Shown piece by piece: positions 15,417 through 22,327 of a DNA stretch of 32,535 nt. The number at the start of each line of letters is the position of its first letter. Position 1 is the first letter of the stretch. The DNA is from Candidatus Gastranaerophilales bacterium. Its GTDB lineage: Bacteria > Cyanobacteriota > Vampirovibrionia > Gastranaerophilales > UBA9971. Both the position numbers and the translations under genes were made by a program. The stretch lies in contig JANQEP010000066.1 in the NCBI GenBank assembly GCA_028278305.1, positions 1-32,535 on the forward strand, read 5' to 3'. The notes below the pieces were generated by a model. The model made no database searches, was not told the origin of the DNA, and saw nothing but the letters and a program-made list of their open reading frames with translations.

Positions 15417-17063
15417 ATGAAAAATAATCATTTAGATAACTTAATAAACAATATAAAACGGGAATTTAAAAACGAGCAATGGTACTGGCATGTGGTAAAT
15501 CTTGCCTGGACAGCCGGTCCTGTTACTTTTATAGCTGTGTATACCGCACATTATATAGGGTATGGACAATTTACTTCTATAAAAACAATTATTTATTTTG
15601 GTCTCTATACTGTTTTTGCGGGGTTATTTGCATTAGCTTTCCAGACCGTGAAAAATGCTTCGGTTAATCCAAAGCTTATTGAATTTAAATATGAACTGCA
15701 TTTTGTAATAGACAGATTACTTGCATATATCTATTTCTGCAAGGAGCACCATATACTTTCCCTTTCCCCGAGCCAAAGGGATATGATGGCGGCATGGTAT
15801 GTGCTGAGCAGTTCTACTTCTGATATTGCAATGATTCAGCATGCGGTGTATCTGTGCACAAAACAAAAAGACCTCGCAGAAGCTATTGAGCATATTGAAT
15901 TTTACCGTAAACAGGGCTTTGCAAATCAATTGACGGAAAAATATAAAAGAATTGAAAATTCCCTGGATAAAGCATTCAGTCATATAGAGCTGACATTTCC
16001 GTCGCTTGCAAAAACCTTAAAAGAAAGGTTTAAAGGTAATATAAAAAATACAAAACTTGGCATCGAAAGACCGCAGGGCTTTTTATCACGTTTAATTACC
16101 GCCGCGGACCAGGAAAACCAGGAAGACAGGCATATCCGGACTGAAGATGCTATAGCGCTTTTAAACCTTACAATTGAGCTTGTCTTAAACCGTAAAATTC
16201 TGACGCTTCATCCTGAATTCGAAAGTGAAAAAAACCTGGAAAAGCTATTCAGGGAATACGAGGCAAAAATTTCTGATTTTAAGTTAATCAGAAGGCTTAG
16301 AAACAATAAAGCCAGGGAATTATTACATCTGGTAAATTCTCATTTTAACCGCATAGAATTTTCTACGGTCGGAATTAACAGCACTCAGCTGAATGATGTT
16401 TTAGCCGAGCTTAAAACATCTCATAAATACAAAAGAGTTATGCGCAATGAGCAGGTAAAAAAACTTTTTGAGGAAGTCAGCCATAAAAATAAAAAGCTTA
16501 AAAACCTGCTGGCAAGGCTGAAAAGCATATATTCCGGAAAACTTGCGAATGCCAATATTTCTCAAAAAGATGTTTCCATTAACGAAAACTATATATTTTT
16601 GGAGTATAAGCAAAAAATTGAAACTATCAGGGCTTTAAGCGGGATAATTAAAAAACATGAATGTGAAGCTTTGAGTATTGAGTGTATCAATAAAATCTGT
16701 TTTGAGATAATTGATATTCTGGATGAAAAACTTAATATTTCAGAACACGATGAGCAAATCGCCATAGAAGAATCAATGGCAGCGGACTTAAACATACTGG
16801 AGCCTAATTTTACTACAGCATATAAAATTGAAATGATTGCAAACCAGATTAATGAATTGCAGGACTCCAAAACAAGGACTATTCACAGGTTTGTAAAACA
16901 CCTTGTGCAATATTATCACTTTGAGCCTTCTGAGTCCTTCAGGCAAAAAATTGTTTCAGACTATCAGGGTGAAAAAGAATGTCTGGATATACTTTCAGAA
17001 CCTTTAGAAAAAATTGATCATATTTCACTTGAAAACCTGGAAAAAGAAATCCTTAAAATATAG
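15417..17063 (+). CDS. Membrane-anchored helical protein of unknown function
   Basis: I recognise no family. The 548-residue product has two membrane helices near its N-terminus (about 25-48 and 55-77) joined by a short polar turn. A long, mostly helical soluble part (about 80-548) then follows, rich in Lys, Glu, Leu and Ile and with coiled-coil-like stretches (about 255-400). No enzyme motif or metal site was seen. The positive N-terminal segment before the first helix suggests that both termini are cytoplasmic. The ATG has no ribosome site. It is followed by a strong bidirectional terminator at 17136-17163 and preceded by the MITE-like element, so it appears monocistronic. Confidence 0.65.
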   Translation: MKNNHLDNLINNIKREFKNEQWYWHVVNLAWTAGPVTFIAVYTAHYIGYGQFTSIKTIIYFGLYTVFAGLFALAFQTVKNASVNPKLIEFKYELHFVIDRLLAYIYFCKEHHILSLSPSQRDMMAAWYVLSSSTSDIAMIQHAVYLCTKQKDLAEAIEHIEFYRKQGFANQLTEKYKRIENSLDKAFSHIELTFPSLAKTLKERFKGNIKNTKLGIERPQGFLSRLITAADQENQEDRHIRTEDAIALLNLTIELVLNRKILTLHPEFESEKNLEKLFREYEAKISDFKLIRRLRNNKARELLHLVNSHFNRIEFSTVGINSTQLNDVLAELKTSHKYKRVMRNEQVKKLFEEVSHKNKKLKNLLARLKSIYSGKLANANISQKDVSINENYIFLEYKQKIETIRALSGIIKKHECEALSIECINKICFEIIDILDEKLNISEHDEQIAIEESMAADLNILEPNFTTAYKIEMIANQINELQDSKTRTIHRFVKHLVQYYHFEPSESFRQKIVSDYQGEKECLDILSEPLEKIDHISLENLEKEILKI

Positions 17064-17135
17064 AAACAGTGGTGAAAAAAATTTTAAAATACGTATGGTT
17101 TACCCTTTATACATTTTTAGAAATTTCCTCAAAAG

Positions 17136-17163
17136 AAAAAGCCTTTTAATTAAAAGGCTTTTT
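17136..17163. terminator. Bidirectional intrinsic terminator
   Basis: A perfect 28-bp palindrome: an AAAAA run, the stem GCCTTTTAATTAAAAGGC at 17141-17158, then a TTTTT run. It works in both directions, ending the plus-strand 548-aa gene and the minus-strand flavodoxin cluster, which converge here. Confidence 0.9.
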
Positions 17164-17188
17164 ATATGAAAGGTAAGAAAAGTTATAA

Positions 17189-17635
17189 CTAACTTTTGCT
17201 CAGCAAAGTACTTTTAATTTTTTCAAGCCATGCCGGAAATCCTGTATCAAAGTCATCATCAGAGAGCTCTACCGGTGCAAGTCTTTTTGCCCCGAATTTC
17301 TCCAGGAACATGTCAAAATCTTTTCCTGTCTTGCAAAAATGTTCGTAAAAAGACTGTCCGAGCGCAAAAACCGCATAATTCAGGTTAGATAAATCTATAC
17401 CTGAAGAATTTTTCAGCTCATTATAAAGGTTTTCCGCATTTGCCGGGGGGTCTCCATCTCCCCAGGTGCTCGTTATAATCAGGATATTTTTATATTCTTT
17501 AAGGTTTTCAACAGACACATTCTGCATATCAACTGCTTCTGCCTTAAATCCCTGGTCAGTAAGCTCCTTTTGGGCATCGCCTGCAAGTCCTTCTGAATTT
17601 CCTGTTTCTGTGCCGAATAAAATTTTAAATTCCAT
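17189..17635 (-). CDS. Flavodoxin
   Basis: Small FMN electron carrier, cytosolic, able to replace ferredoxin when iron is scarce. The 148 residues show the FMN phosphate loop GTETGNSEG (8-16), the STWGDGDPP loop (56-64) and the ALGQSFYEHFCKTGKDFD flavin-binding stretch (91-108). The latter two resemble the flavodoxin domain of CysJ/cytochrome P450 reductases more than classic short flavodoxins. The ATG comes directly after the TAA of the 87-aa gene (TAAATG), with AAAAGGAG inside that gene's end. It is last in a DUF2023 / 87-aa / flavodoxin unit preceded by a predicted DtxR-type operator. Iron control is inferred from that site and from known flavodoxin biology. Confidence 0.92.
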   Translation of the reverse strand: MEFKILFGTETGNSEGLAGDAQKELTDQGFKAEAVDMQNVSVENLKEYKNILIITSTWGDGDPPANAENLYNELKNSSGIDLSNLNYAVFALGQSFYEHFCKTGKDFDMFLEKFGAKRLAPVELSDDDFDTGFPAWLEKIKSTLLSKS

Positions 17636-17899
17636 TTATATCTCCTTTTTACTGCTTTCATTTGTAATATTAGTCTCATAGGGCGGTAGTATATTGTCTT
17701 TGTAGACTCCCATGTACTTGATATCATCAATTTTAAATACCCAGCTCATGGTATTAGCTTCTCCAAGATGGAGAAGACAGAAATTTTTGTTGTCAAGATC
17801 TGTTATTTTACCCATATATCTTGCGTTACAGCAATAATTCAACTGGATAATAACATCATGACCATAATCAAGCGCCTGCTGCAAATATTTTCTTATCAT
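17636..17899 (-). CDS. 87-aa hypothetical protein, possible small beta-barrel
   Basis: I do not recognise it with confidence. An N-terminal helix (MIRKYLQQALDYG) is followed by alternating strands: DVIIQLNY, ARYMGKITDLD, NFCLLHL, WVFKIDDIKYMGVY. This order looks like an SH3- or Sm-like small barrel, an inference from pattern only. C23 and C24 are adjacent and could bind metal or form a disulfide. A strong AAAAAGGAGG site precedes the ATG. It lies between the DUF2023 gene and flavodoxin with almost no gap, so a role tied to flavodoxin or iron status is likely. Confidence 0.7.
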   Translation of the reverse strand: MIRKYLQQALDYGHDVIIQLNYCCNARYMGKITDLDNKNFCLLHLGEANTMSWVFKIDDIKYMGVYKDNILPPYETNITNESSKKEI

Positions 17900-17929
17900 T
17901 TATATTCCTCCTTTTTTACTGAAATTTAT

Positions 17930-18373
17930 TTAACCAATCAAATCATCAAGCTCTAAGCCTTTTTTCCGCATTTTTAAATACCTGTCGCATTGCTGCAGCC
18001 TGTCATAGCCCAGCATTATTCCCAGGATAAAATCCTGCTCAGGTGTGAGTTTGTTTAGCTGAGAATCAAACGTCGACACAATATCAATACAAAATTGATT
18101 TCCAAAATACACGTTAATTTTTTCATCTGTTATTTCATGAATAACATATGGAATTTTTTCTTTTTCAAGCCTTTTTTCTATGACTTCCTTGTTTTTAGCC
18201 CTCTCTGTCGTTAATACCAGATTTCTCAGCCCTTTTCTGTACTCATAGATATGATGGCAAAATACCTGTAGTTCATTAAAATTTTGCCTGTCTAAAAACG
18301 CAAAGGCGCCAGGGGCTTTTGAGCATATATCATCGTATTTTTTTATGTTTTTCCCCATGTTTATCAAATTCAT
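17930..18373 (-). CDS. DUF2023 family protein
   Basis: Matches what I recall of DUF2023: FCHHIYEYRKGLRNLVLTT, a central KIPYVIHEITDEKINVYFG region and the closing LTPEQDFILGIMLGYDRLQQC segment. The biochemical function is unknown; in some Bacteroidota members I recall it next to flavodoxin, as here. I chose the ATG at 18371-18373 (147 aa) because GGAG lies 9 nt upstream at 18383-18386. A start at 18406 would give 158 aa but has no good ribosome site and abuts a predicted operator/promoter. It is first of a three-gene unit with the 87-aa gene and flavodoxin. Confidence 0.78.
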   Translation of the reverse strand: MNLINMGKNIKKYDDICSKAPGAFAFLDRQNFNELQVFCHHIYEYRKGLRNLVLTTERAKNKEVIEKRLEKEKIPYVIHEITDEKINVYFGNQFCIDIVSTFDSQLNKLTPEQDFILGIMLGYDRLQQCDRYLKMRKKGLELDDLIG

Positions 18374-18406
18374 AGCTGACTTCTCCATGTTTGAATTGCA
18401 ATACAT

Positions 18407-18424
18407 TGTTCTATATGCCTAACA
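18407..18424. promoter_or_regulatory. Predicted DtxR-type operator, DUF2023/flavodoxin unit
   Basis: Minus strand reads TGTTAGGCATATAGAACA, sharing TGTTAGG-N8-ACA with the sites upstream of dtxR and of the truncated regulator. A TTGAGA (-35-like, 18429-18434) lies 18 bp from AACAAT. The surrounding 27 nt also closely match the truncated-regulator site. The internal symmetry is weak, so binding is less certain than at the dtxR promoter. Confidence 0.45.
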
Positions 18425-18441
18425 TTATTCTCAAAAAAATT

Positions 18442-19662
18442 TTACGCTTCGCTATATTTAAGGCTACGGCTTGTAAACCTCTCAAAAACCCGGTTATCGG
18501 AATTTTTATATCCTTTAAAATTCTCCGCGTTTTTTTTACAATTCCTGTTTTTACCCGCATTATTGGGTTTTTTCGGGCAGTTATCACCGTTTCTGTAACC
18601 AATACCTGCCCTGTAACCTGATACTGAGTATAATATAGGAAGAGCAGGTTCAATCCATCTTAAGCCTGACATTACCGCAACTGTGGCAATATCGTCTACA
18701 TGTAAGCCGATATCAAGAGCCTCGGGTCTTCTTTCTGAATATAAGCCCCTGTGGTGCTTATTATTTTCTTTTTGTCCTTGCTGCCCGCCAAATAACCGGT
18801 TAATAACATTTTGTCCGAAATAGTTAGCTATTGCGCTGCCTCCTATCACTCCTGTTATGGCTATACCGGTTATCATCCCGAGCGCCCTGCTGGCTTTTGA
18901 TTTTATGTTCATTTTTTCCATTATTCCAAGAGCAGCCCCGGCTCCAACATTACACAGGAATATGTTTGCAAGGTACTGGTAAGATCCTTCATTGATTTTA
19001 TCGCGAATTCTGTTTTTCCATTTCTTTTCGGTTAACATGTCTCCTGTAATACCTCCTGCTATTCCGCCAAGAACAGGCGCAAGTCCCATCAGGGAAAGCC
19101 TGCCTATCTCTGAGAAAATCTTTTTGGATGTAATATTTTCAGGGTCAGGAATTAACTTGTTTAAAAGCTTATTTCCCCATTGATTTTTTCCTATAAGCTC
19201 GTGTAATTCACCTATTTCTCTTTTTTTCAGAGGATTTTCCACCAGGTTATCAAGAAGCTGGTTTATTCTCGGGTTTCTAAAAAGATTCCTGGTTTCCTGG
19301 TCTATAGCCGGGCTTTTTATGAGCATCCTTCTGAATCGATTTAAAAACCTTTCGGATACTTTTTTTGTTTGCCCGGGAGTTTTTATAGGAGTTAATCCCC
19401 TGAATCCCTTAAAAATCTCTTTACCGAAGATTTTCACAGGCTTTATACCCCTGGTTGCCACAAGGATTGATGCTACTGTAGCCCCGAGCACACAGAAATT
19501 TTTTATAAAGGTTTTCTTTTTTTCGTTTTCAGGGGCTCTGTAAGTATCATAAAGACCGTACCCGACTGCTCCTGCCGCTAAAACTCCCGGCACTGCCTTC
19601 GAGAATTTTGATACGAGCATTGGCTGGTCTAAATATTTACCTATTGTCATAAGAGAGTTCAA
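18442..19662 (-). CDS. Hypothetical membrane protein, glycine/alanine-rich helices
   Basis: No family recognised; I have an impression of similar proteins in Melainabacteria-type genomes. The 406 residues have several glycine/alanine-rich hydrophobic segments (about 24-40, 56-72, 190-210, 230-250, 262-286), alternating with basic loops (for example FLNRFRRMLIKS). The C-terminal tail is polar and Asn/Lys-rich. Its probable start is TTG (19660-19662), supported by AAAGG about 10 nt upstream; an in-frame ATG at 19648-19650 is the alternative. It lies inside the co-directional DtxR-flavodoxin cluster, 42 bp after the DUF5320 gene. A link to metal handling is possible only by context. Confidence 0.65.
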   Translation of the reverse strand: MNSLMTIGKYLDQPMLVSKFSKAVPGVLAAGAVGYGLYDTYRAPENEKKKTFIKNFCVLGATVASILVATRGIKPVKIFGKEIFKGFRGLTPIKTPGQTKKVSERFLNRFRRMLIKSPAIDQETRNLFRNPRINQLLDNLVENPLKKREIGELHELIGKNQWGNKLLNKLIPDPENITSKKIFSEIGRLSLMGLAPVLGGIAGGITGDMLTEKKWKNRIRDKINEGSYQYLANIFLCNVGAGAALGIMEKMNIKSKASRALGMITGIAITGVIGGSAIANYFGQNVINRLFGGQQGQKENNKHHRGLYSERRPEALDIGLHVDDIATVAVMSGLRWIEPALPILYSVSGYRAGIGYRNGDNCPKKPNNAGKNRNCKKNAENFKGYKNSDNRVFERFTSRSLKYSEA

Positions 19663-19704
19663 AATTTATTACCTTTATTTAAATACGAATGACAATTTGC
19701 TTAT

Positions 19705-19896
19705 CTAAGTGGAATTTCGTTTTACAAATATATCGCCTTGTTGTCCTTTATCAGCAGACTGTCTGTATCTAGCCCCGCATGATGATATGCCCCTTTCCTG
19801 CTGAGGTCTGCTTGTCATATCAGTGCGACAGCCGCCGCAGCCTTTACCTGTCATTGCTCCTCTACCTATCGGTCCTGTTCCGTCTAAATTTGGCAT
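19705..19896 (-). CDS. DUF5320-like small Gly/Met-rich protein
   Basis: A 63-aa protein beginning MPNLDGTGPIGRGAMTGKG, the typical opening of DUF5320 proteins. In other anaerobes such genes often neighbour P-loop iron-sulfur carrier or NifX-like genes; their function is not established. Four cysteines (C20, C23, C40 and the preceding CGGC pair region) are compatible with metal binding. An AAAGGG site precedes the ATG. It lies 14 bp after the truncated DtxR-like gene, in the same orientation as the metalloregulator cluster. Confidence 0.75.
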   Translation of the reverse strand: MPNLDGTGPIGRGAMTGKGCGGCRTDMTSRPQQERGISSCGARYRQSADKGQQGDIFVKRNST

Positions 19897-19910
19897 AATT
19901 TTTTCCCTTT

Positions 19911-20141
19911 CTATTTAATAAAATACCTGCTAAATTCCTTTGAATATTCCGGGTCGTTTAAAATCCTGTCTTTTGTATGTTCAATAAAGCATTTAAGCCT
20001 GTTTAAGGCATTTTCAGATATAGAACCTTCAAGTTTTAAAGTGTTTTTTAATGCCTCATTTTCATTTAATCCAAGTACTTCAATCATAAACTGATAGATA
20101 ATACCGTATTTGTTCTTCATTTCTATTAATTTTTTGTTCAT
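19911..20141 (-). CDS. Truncated DtxR-like protein: dimerisation domain only
   Basis: The product aligns with residues 81-124 of the full regulator just upstream (19 of 44 identical, ungapped) but lacks the entire N-terminal winged helix. The metal-ligand positions have changed: H81 to Y12, C104 to L35 and H108 to G39; only E107 (E38) remains. It therefore looks unable to bind DNA or metal but may keep the dimer surface. I take the ATG at 20139-20141 (76 aa). An ATG at 20184-20186 is possible but overlaps a predicted operator, and neither has a clear ribosome site. It could be a dominant-negative partner of the regulator or a decaying duplicate; the open frame and operator favour a real gene. 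Confidence 0.6.
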   Translation of the reverse strand: MNKKLIEMKNKYGIIYQFMIEVLGLNENEALKNTLKLEGSISENALNRLKCFIEHTKDRILNDPEYSKEFSRYFIK

Positions 20142-20167
20142 AATTTGTTGTTTTAACCGCGATAAAT

Positions 20168-20185
20168 TGTTTGATCCACCTAACA
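20168..20185. promoter_or_regulatory. Predicted DtxR-type operator, truncated regulator gene
   Basis: Minus strand reads TGTTAGGTGGATCAAACA, an imperfect 18-bp palindrome (12 of 18 positions symmetric) sharing TGTTAGG-N8-ACA with the other two sites. A TTGCGT at 20190-20195 lies 18 bp from AACAAT, the same spacing as at the DUF2023 site. It sits 20 bp past the dtxR stop codon. Confidence 0.5.
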
Positions 20186-20205
20186 TTAAACGCAAAAAAA
20201 TTTTA

Positions 20206-20652
20206 TTAATTGCCTTTTTGCATGTAAAATTTTTTAAATTCTTCAAGATAATTATTACTTTGACATTGAAACTGTTTATTAAACTCTATAAAAGAGACAA
20301 GTCTTTTTAATACATCCTCTGATATTACATGCTCAATCCGGCATGCGTTTTCCTGGGCTTCTTCCTTGTTGAGCCCCAGGATTTTAACAAGGAACTCATA
20401 TAAAACCTGGTGTCTCTGCTGAACTTTTTGAGCAACTTTTTCTCCTGCCGGGGTCAGGGAAATTACATCATAACGTCCGTAATTAACAAGCTTTTTATCA
20501 GCAAGGTTTTTTAGGGCTTCTGTTACAGAAGACCTGCTAACCCCCAGGCGCCTTGAAATTTCAATTGCCTTAACACCCTGTTTCTCTTCAATTATTTCGT
20601 AAATAGTTTCAAGATAATCTTCAAGGCTTGCTGATATTTTTTTCTTTTTCAA
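20206..20652 (-). CDS. DtxR/MntR-family metal-dependent repressor, iron-type ligand set
   Basis: Cytosolic metal-sensing repressor. Residues 1-70 form the winged helix (recognition region VSRSSVTEALKNL, 38-50); residues 71-140 form the dimerisation and metal domain. Ligand positions by comparison with DtxR and MntR: D12, E15, H81, C104, E107, H108. Cys at 104 (ENACRIEH) matches C102 of iron-sensing DtxR/IdeR, where manganese-sensing MntR has Glu, so iron is the more likely effector. There is no C-terminal SH3 domain, giving 148 aa like MntR. The start is a TTG with AAGGA 7 nt upstream. A palindromic operator lies inside its promoter (20702-20730), indicating autoregulation. It heads a co-directional cluster ending in flavodoxin. 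Confidence 0.9.
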   Translation of the reverse strand: MKKKKISASLEDYLETIYEIIEEKQGVKAIEISRRLGVSRSSVTEALKNLADKKLVNYGRYDVISLTPAGEKVAQKVQQRHQVLYEFLVKILGLNKEEAQENACRIEHVISEDVLKRLVSFIEFNKQFQCQSNNYLEEFKKFYMQKGN

Positions 20653-20701
20653 CTTTTTATCCTTTTTGCTTGTTTACGTTATGTTTATTAATTTTAAAAT
20701 G

Positions 20702-20730
20702 AATGTAAGGTAAACCTAACATTTTGTCAA
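20702..20730 (-). promoter_or_regulatory. dtxR promoter with embedded DtxR-type operator
   Basis: On the minus strand a perfect -35 TTGACA (20725-20730) is separated by 17 bp from a -10 TACATT (20702-20707). The spacer and -10 carry the 18-bp operator TGTTAGGTTTACCTTACA (20704-20721), symmetric at 14 of 18 positions and close to the TTAGGTTA-type half-sites of DtxR/IdeR boxes. The -10 is about 50 bp upstream of the TTG start. Repressor binding here would block polymerase, so the regulator very likely controls itself. Confidence 0.8.
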
Positions 20731-20755
20731 GATAAAAATTAAGGGGTCAAAGAAT

Positions 20756-20874
20756 AAAAACTTACGCATTTTAAAATTTTTCAAAAACTCCCGCCCGCCC
20801 TCAAAGGAGGTTAAAGGCTTAGCCTTTAACAATTCCATATAGATTTTTGAAAAATTTTACGTAAGAATTTTTTC
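20756..20874. repeat. Foldback element with AT-rich terminal inverted repeats
   Basis: Perfect 16-bp arms TAAAATTTTTCAAAAA (20772-20787) and its complement (20844-20859) are extended outward by CTTACG / CGTAAG. Inside is a perfect 10-bp hairpin GTTAAAGGCT-t-AGCCTTTAAC (20810-20830). Non-coding. The ends resemble, but do not match, those of the 97-bp element at 8361-8457. Confidence 0.6.
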
Positions 20875-20981
20875 TTTATTCCTTAATAATTTGTTACTTA
20901 ATTTACTGCTTAATAAAATTTTGTAATGTAAAATAAAGAAATTTTTACAGGCAGCAATTTGAGTAACTTGTTAAGAAACAG

Positions 20982-21151
20982 CCTGGTCTCCCGAAATTGA
21001 GTTGATAACACCCAAATTGTCATTGCGAGGGCTCAATGACAATTTGAGAGCCCGTGGCAATCTGGGGAACTCCGTGTCAAAGCTTAAAATTTATAGCTTA
21101 ATGCGACGTTGCCCAGTTCGGGGGCTGTTAACATGGTGCCGGGAGACAAGG
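20982..21151. repeat. MITE-like repeat element A, copy 2 (internally deleted)
   Basis: A 170-bp near-identical copy of 8076-8294 in the same orientation, with the same ends (CCTGGTCTCCCG and CGGGAGACAAGG) and the same internal 13-bp hairpin. It lacks about 48 bp near the right end: after GACGTTGCCCAG it jumps to TTCGGGGGCTGTTAACATGG. It lies just upstream of the exporter operon at 21212. Confidence 0.8.
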
Positions 21152-21211
21152 CAACCGGGCTAAGCAGGTAAGATAAAAGAACTTGCTGATCAATTTGTTT
21201 AAAATACAAAA

Positions 21212-22327
21212 ATGAGCCTTAAAAAGAAAATATTTCTAATTATAATTATTCTGCTTATAATCCTGTTTATTGCCTGGTATTTGCTTGGAGGAACCGGGTC
21301 TGTCGCTTTAGAGATAAAAAGGCAGGATGCTATTAAAGGTATAACCGTAACAGGAAACGTTGAATCCACAGAAGATATACAGATAACAGCGGAAGTTACG
21401 GCAAGAATAGAAGAAATCCTTACAGAAACAGGGAATTCGGTAAATAAAGGCGAAGTTTTAGCTTATCTGAGAAGGGAAGAGCAGATAGGCGAAGTTACCG
21501 CAGCCAGCGCCAATATTGAGGCATTACAGGAGCAACTCCAGAGAAACAGGGTTCAGTACCAGGACGCGCTTTCTGATGAAAAGAGATACGAGGATTTATA
21601 CGAGGAAGGGGCAGTTAGCAAAAGAGACCTTGAAGAGAGGACTTTAAAAAGACAGGAGCTGGAAGAGTCAATTGACCAGAGGCTACAGGAAATTCAGGCT
21701 GCCCGCGGGGAATTAAAAGCCGCAAAGAGCAGGCTCGAGGATTACGTGATTAAAGCTCCGCTTTCCGGTATTATTACGGATAAATTCGTTAGTACAGGTG
21801 ATATTGTTACGCCCCAGCAGACGCTTTTCAGGCTTATTGTTCCTGAAGCCATTTACCTGGAAGCTGAGGTTGAGGAAAATGAGCTTGAATCCGTTGAAAT
21901 CGGGCAAAAAACCCTTGTTATATTTGACGCTTACCCTGAAGAAATTTTTGAAGGGCGGGTTTATTTAATTTCCAAGGAGGTTAACCCGGTTACAGGAACT
22001 TTTGACGCCAGGATTACCAGGCCACAGGATACTGAATACAGTATTTTTGTTGGAATGACCTTTGATGCAACTATTATTGCGGAAGAGTATAAAGATATTT
22101 TAATAATACCAACTGATTTTATAGAAACAGAAGACAGTAAAACATACGTATTTAAGCTTATAAACGATTTTGCCTCTAAAAAGCAGGTGAAAATTGAATT
22201 TTTCAACAATAATGCTGTCAGAGTCCTCGAAGGTATTGAAGAAGGAGAAATTATCCTTAGAAAAACAGATACAGGAAAGCTTAGAGATAATGAAAAGGTT
22301 AAAATTATTGAGTATAGAAAACAATGA
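21212..22327 (+). CDS. Periplasmic adaptor (membrane fusion) protein, MacA/HlyD-like
   Basis: Links an inner-membrane ABC pump to the outer envelope. The 371 residues have one N-terminal membrane anchor (about 6-26), the first half of a lipoyl-like domain (about 55-87), a coiled-coil hairpin (about 95-175) and the second lipoyl half with KAPLSGIITDKFVSTGDIV (181-199). A beta-barrel and membrane-proximal domain make up the rest. No ribosome site precedes the ATG. Its stop overlaps the permease start by four bases (ATGA), so the three genes form one operon. No TolC-type outer membrane channel is nearby. The substrate is unknown; such systems export lipids, macrolides or peptides. Confidence 0.88.
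   Translation: MSLKKKIFLIIIILLIILFIAWYLLGGTGSVALEIKRQDAIKGITVTGNVESTEDIQITAEVTARIEEILTETGNSVNKGEVLAYLRREEQIGEVTAASANIEALQEQLQRNRVQYQDALSDEKRYEDLYEEGAVSKRDLEERTLKRQELEESIDQRLQEIQAARGELKAAKSRLEDYVIKAPLSGIITDKFVSTGDIVTPQQTLFRLIVPEAIYLEAEVEENELESVEIGQKTLVIFDAYPEEIFEGRVYLISKEVNPVTGTFDARITRPQDTEYSIFVGMTFDATIIAEEYKDILIIPTDFIETEDSKTYVFKLINDFASKKQVKIEFFNNNAVRVLEGIEEGEIILRKTDTGKLRDNEKVKIIEYRKQ

Follow-up and report, generated by a model that had tools for sequence, protein, structure and literature searches.

A stand-alone dimerisation domain next to a DtxR/MntR-type regulator

The window analysed here, a stretch of 32,535 nucleotides, corresponds to contig C127 of a Candidatus Gastranaerophilales genome (G000; 2.17 Mb, 160 contigs) and carries on its reverse strand the gene of a DtxR/MntR-type regulator (20206-20652), which is followed, about 65 bases past the regulator stop codon, by a small ORF (19911-20141). 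The regulator comprises 148 amino acids, starts with TTG, and contains both DtxR domains and no SH3/FeoA domain. All six ligands of the primary metal site (D12, E15, H81, C104, E107 and H108) are present and invariant among four relatives, and the closest solved relatives of the protein are MntR proteins. Further downstream, and likewise on the reverse strand, lie a gene for a DUF5320-family small protein of 63 amino acids (19705-19896), which starts 14 bases past the small ORF and also occurs in G001; a gene for a 406-aa protein of the KYLDQP family without a Pfam match above cut-off (18442-19662); and a cluster of genes encoding a DUF2023 protein (17930-18406), an 88-aa protein and, as the last named gene, flavodoxin (17189-17635), the classic low-iron replacement for ferredoxin. 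Named relatives are MAGs of Candidatus Gastranaerophilales and Caenarcanum. In five genomes (the window's own, G001, G002, L117 and L118) the 406-aa protein follows the regulator locus, whether the small ORF is present or not.

The small ORF translates into 76 amino acids without internal stops and encodes a stand-alone DtxR-type dimerisation domain. The Pfam domain Fe_dep_repr_C (PF02742) matches residues 6-58 (E 1.3e-6, 28.8 bits, curated cut-off 27), while the orthologues within the genus score slightly under this cut-off (24.9 and 23.9 bits) and the L117 copy reaches 15.3 bits. No match to the winged-helix domain PF01325 was obtained in either the 76-aa or a longer 111-aa reading of the frame, and within the gene pair this domain occurs only in the neighbouring regulator. 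This bears out the sequence-only reading of the DNA, according to which the frame behind the regulator matches the dimerisation domain only; of the 19 identities in 44 residues stated there, the 19 stand, and the aligned core positions number 45. The small protein aligns without gaps and over its full length, tail included, with the C-terminal half of the regulators of the genus, and identity between small protein and regulator amounts to 33-41%. The longer start, a TTG at 20246, is not favoured, since the frame of G002 closes just before the ATG and conservation begins at the ATG; a chance ORF is ruled out by the Pfam match and by orthologues at the same place in relatives. By eye, no clear Shine-Dalgarno sequence precedes the ATG in the window, G002 or L117, so expression of the small gene may be low. 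Structural modeling using AF2 yielded a confident five-helix fold (pLDDT 86, pTM 0.69), for which Foldseek returned MntR as the first PDB match (E 1.3, weak), followed by IdeR, DtxR and SloR, all with non-significant E-values.

In the numbering of BhMntR, H77, C99, E102 and H103 are each conserved in all of 48 regulators compared. In the DtxR family position 99 may be E or C, and two further metal ligands are contributed by the DNA-binding domain. In the small protein of the window three of these four ligands of the dimerisation domain are replaced (H77 by Y, C99 by L and H103 by G), exactly as had been read from the letters, and E102 is retained. The corresponding positions of the L117 protein are S, I, E and S; thus, the H, C and H ligands are replaced in all four small proteins, and E102 is the only ligand that is kept throughout. 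Compared to MntR, IdeR, DtxR and SloR, the small protein shares the PF02742 dimerisation domain by sequence as well as the pattern of the interface, but differs in consisting of 76 residues only, without the winged-helix domain and without the H, C and H ligands. Judged by its sequence, it is not a DtxR-type regulator: it has kept the dimerisation domain, but the DNA-binding domain and three of the four metal ligands of that domain are missing.

Distribution, origin and selective constraint

The sequence-only reading had suggested looking for the gene pair in relatives. G001 and G002, the other two genomes of the genus, both carry it intact, and their small proteins are 59% and 66% identical, respectively, to that of the window. 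A fourth, divergent small protein of 88 amino acids is encoded directly after the regulator in L117, the regulator of which is 69% identical to that of the window; this copy was reached only through a search with the regulator. Hence, in all four carrier genomes the small ORF lies beside a parent-type regulator. In L118, a close relative of L117, a very similar regulator is present and the small ORF is absent. No other intact stand-alone copies were identified at the cut-offs used among 286 genomes of the order, 382 of the class and 146 of the phylum, which are overlapping samples and of which the searches of class and phylum could miss a copy as divergent as that of L117. A search of the genome-contig database with the three small proteins of the genus gave no match. 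A domain tree joins the four small proteins in one group (support 97/91) near the lineage of the adjacent regulator, the L117 protein sitting on a very long branch and the 76 columns of the alignment being few. A single origin from the lineage of the adjacent regulator, with loss in some relatives, would be the simplest reading of these sequences.

It should be mentioned that the L117 sequence (JAQVDK010000033.1) belongs to a MAG titled Eubacteriales; its locus is highly similar to those of Gastranaerophilales, and the title is probably wrong. In addition, G001 harbors a decayed second copy of the regulator/small-ORF locus (G001:C313; L041, about 1360-1600), in which the iron promoter, some 15 codons of the regulator tail, the second box described below and, of the small ORF, a remnant of 32 amino acids can be recognised. 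This relic precedes an unrelated ORF of 212 amino acids and may have brought it under iron control.

When all three species of the genus are compared, the small gene has an omega of 0.065 and the regulator one of 0.051, and omega = 1 is rejected for both (2dlnL 52.7 and 190.7, respectively); dS is saturated in this comparison except between the window and G002. For this pair, omega is 0.206 for the small gene and 0.090 for the regulator, with omega = 1 again rejected (2dlnL 16.0 and 70.8). The small gene changes more quickly than the regulator, yet purifying selection clearly constrains it. The sequence-only reading had considered a duplicate on its way out, with a dN/dS near 1 as the mark of a pseudogene. 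For the main copy this is refuted, as the gene is intact in L117 as well as throughout the genus (three genomes) and as omega = 1 is rejected in both comparisons.

Iron box and second box

The promoter of the regulator (20702-20730, reverse strand) consists of TTGACA-N17-TACATT, with an iron box, ATGTTAGGTTTACCTTACAT (20703-20722), lying between and over the hexamers. The same layout is found in the window, G001 and G002: TTGACA stands two bases ahead of a box of the form ATGTTAGGCTTGCCTTACAT, the right end of which overlaps the -10 hexamer TACATT. Apart from its position upstream of the regulator in all three genomes, the box occurs upstream of feoB in G001, G002 and, in weaker form, G000; in G002 it also precedes the DUF2023-flavodoxin operon, and both G000 and G001 have it ahead of a methyltransferase gene. 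In these box searches the counts at two mismatches are near those of the control, and only the best matches are meaningful. Orthologous regulators head feoA/feoB in G007 and G009 and a DUF5320-like/feoB pair in G004. As the box precedes genes for ferrous iron uptake and flavodoxin as well as the regulator gene itself, the adjacent regulator is, going by the established roles of these genes, very probably an iron repressor with operator-like sites. A perfect or near-perfect iron box lies directly ahead of an isoprenylcysteine-methyltransferase-like gene in two species (L092, G000:C83:3379-3398; L094, G001:C4:6016-6035).

A second, weaker box-like element, ATGTTAGGTGGATCAAACAA (20167-20186, reverse strand), is located between the regulator and the small ORF and is conserved in all carriers of the small ORF; its right half is degraded in the window, G002 and L117. 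Related elements occur 3' of the regulator also in G007, G009, L118 and L120, where the small ORF was not found. In the form TGTTAGGN6RAACAATGTAT, allowing up to two mismatches, seven occurrences were identified in five genomes, compared to 0-1 hits per strand in the control, and these sites are always situated after an adjacent-type regulator or ahead of a DUF2023 gene. An element of the same type, TGTTAGGCATATAGAACAATGTAT (18401-18424, reverse strand), is present where the DUF2023 gene of the window begins; all elements of this type that were found lie at iron loci, in G000, G001, G002 and G007, and in G001 (C329) one lies inside a clear promoter with TTGACA ahead of DUF2023. From its sequence context, the second box looks like an internal promoter-operator for whichever gene comes next. 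Its occurrence in relatives in which feoA or another gene, and not the small ORF, follows the regulator indicates that it is part of the 3' region of the regulator and predates the small gene. An operator acquired together with the small gene is therefore rejected: the operator-like site noticed upstream of the small ORF in the sequence-only reading is real and conserved, but not the small gene's own. In L117 the box abuts the ATG of the small gene, so that the gene would either need read-through there or the box may act as a roadblock. The motif GTTAGGC had raised the possibility of an integron attC site, but by eye no matching inverse core was seen upstream, and no Rfam match to an RNA element was obtained within 17000-21300.

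A second DtxR-type regulator, of 182 amino acids, is encoded elsewhere in the window's genome (G000:C98, L071:3566-4114) and also at L043, L020 and L028. It, too, has lost metal ligands, H77, C99 and H103 all being changed in the copy of the window's genome. It possesses a Cys-rich tail (CPCKEP...CSKC...C...CC..C), lies in the window's genome near cystathionine lyase-like, tRNA thiolase-like and HydE-resembling radical-SAM genes, and is possibly an Fe-S or thiol sensor, as far as its sequence suggests.

A candidate metal-blind partner of the iron repressor

MntR dimerises via helices 4-7, for which the interface residues have been listed (PMC6860424). In MntR numbering, all four small proteins keep F83, L87 and E102 as well as hydrophobic residues at positions 101 and 105, and the three proteins of the genus additionally keep N97 and S106 of the interface. 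Interface positions agree with the regulator more often than the remaining positions do, but this is no more than a suggestive trend (Fisher p 0.055-0.09 per genome, the genomes not being independent), and among the small proteins themselves the interface shows no greater invariance than the rest (p 0.44). When its SH3 domain is missing, IdeR forms a stable dimer even in the absence of metal (PMC10317159); by extension, the adjacent regulator, which lacks this domain, might combine with the small protein whatever the iron level. Like a microProtein, the small protein is a single domain derived from the interaction domain of a larger regulator and is maintained by selection. We therefore favour, with a probability of roughly one half, that it antagonises the adjacent iron repressor as a metal-blind partner of the microProtein type, acting by inferred heterodimerisation. 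This fits the observed selection, the loss of ligands with the interface largely kept, the shared iron-regulated locus and the bacterial precedents discussed below.

It might further be speculated, at somewhat less than even odds, that the DtxR family has evolved a dedicated anti-repressor that is induced by iron starvation, blind to metal, and poisons its parent by heterodimerisation, thereby providing positive feedback on the iron response. Under the favoured explanation, the regulator would release its own promoter when iron drops, and regulator and small protein would be made together; the small protein would occupy one place in the regulator dimer, and the resulting heterodimer would have only one DNA-binding domain and no more than one metal site and would be unable to hold the palindromic iron box. 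A sharper or longer derepression of feoB, flavodoxin and the regulator operon itself would be the result. As the small gene sits within a locus headed by the regulator's own iron box, falling iron would raise the level of its product and thereby strengthen derepression. With iron scarce, the repressor would already be in its apo form, and such an antagonist would thus matter only at intermediate iron or during recovery.

Alternatively, the small protein may homodimerise or bind another protein and have a job separate from antagonism, for example together with the DUF5320 and 406-aa proteins of the operon. Its large divergence from the regulator (33-41% identity), a conserved helix, EALKNTLKLE, unlike the regulator's own sequence, and the conservation of the 406-aa neighbour would agree with such a role; we nevertheless regard it as unlikely, as what the protein has retained corresponds to the dimer helices of the parent family and its gene stands beside the parent regulator in four of four genomes. 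Still less probable is a positive partner, in which a stable heterodimer would bind half sites or the asymmetric second box as a co-repressor or with altered targets, similar to FleT for FleQ: an asymmetric binder is imaginable given the degraded right half of that box in three carriers, but the same asymmetric box is present in G007, where the small ORF was not found. The small protein might also act on the metal-site-poor, Cys-rich-tail paralogue, which exists in the window's genome and G001, and not on its neighbour; this appears very improbable, since its match to the adjacent regulator is the better one (E about 1e-11 vs 0.009) and its gene is linked to that of the regulator and not to the paralogue gene. 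A decaying duplicate or chance ORF, for which the truly decayed copy in G001 with its 32-aa remnant and the missing gene in L118 might be quoted, is hardly credible for a gene that is intact in four genomes and for which omega = 1 is rejected with a 2dlnL of 52.7.

As an antagonist of the adjacent repressor, the small protein would, by analogy, work like TrlR, CerN or SinI (PMC11655674, PMC6192195). TrlR of Agrobacterium is a truncated TraR that forms inactive heterodimers, and the small protein would resemble it as a truncated partner-antagonist; however, this member of the LuxR family is 88% identical to TraR and has kept ligand binding (PMC11655674), while the small protein is 33-41% identical to its regulator and has lost the ligand site. 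CerN of Cereibacter sphaeroides is an HTH-less homologue and antagonist of the full-length regulator CerM, with which it shares 31% identity, read by the authors as ancient duplication or rapid divergence (PMC11655674). CerN also belongs to the LuxR family and acts with AHL, whereas the effector site is gone in the small protein. SinI of Bacillus subtilis, a small anti-repressor, binds to SinR and changes the way in which SinR interacts with DNA, but SinR belongs to an unrelated regulator family and is not a metalloregulator. Plant microProteins are small and consist of a single domain, with which they disable a larger relative via heterodimers (PMC7534434); they are eukaryotic, and for the small protein such a function is putative. 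The sequence-only reading knew of no described case of such a partner. This holds for the DtxR family, for which no dimer-poisoning partner was found in the open-access literature, but not for other families, where truncated partner-antagonists such as TrlR and CerN are known, with FleT as a further precedent (PMC11655674).

What would be new, accordingly, is the dimer-partner trick in the DtxR family, as it is known already from other regulator families. Descriptions of DtxR/IdeR-type iron repressors usually name metal as their only tuning input. If the proposed role holds true, a natural dimer-poisoning partner would represent a second, protein-level input to these repressors and, at the same time, a compact tool to study them.
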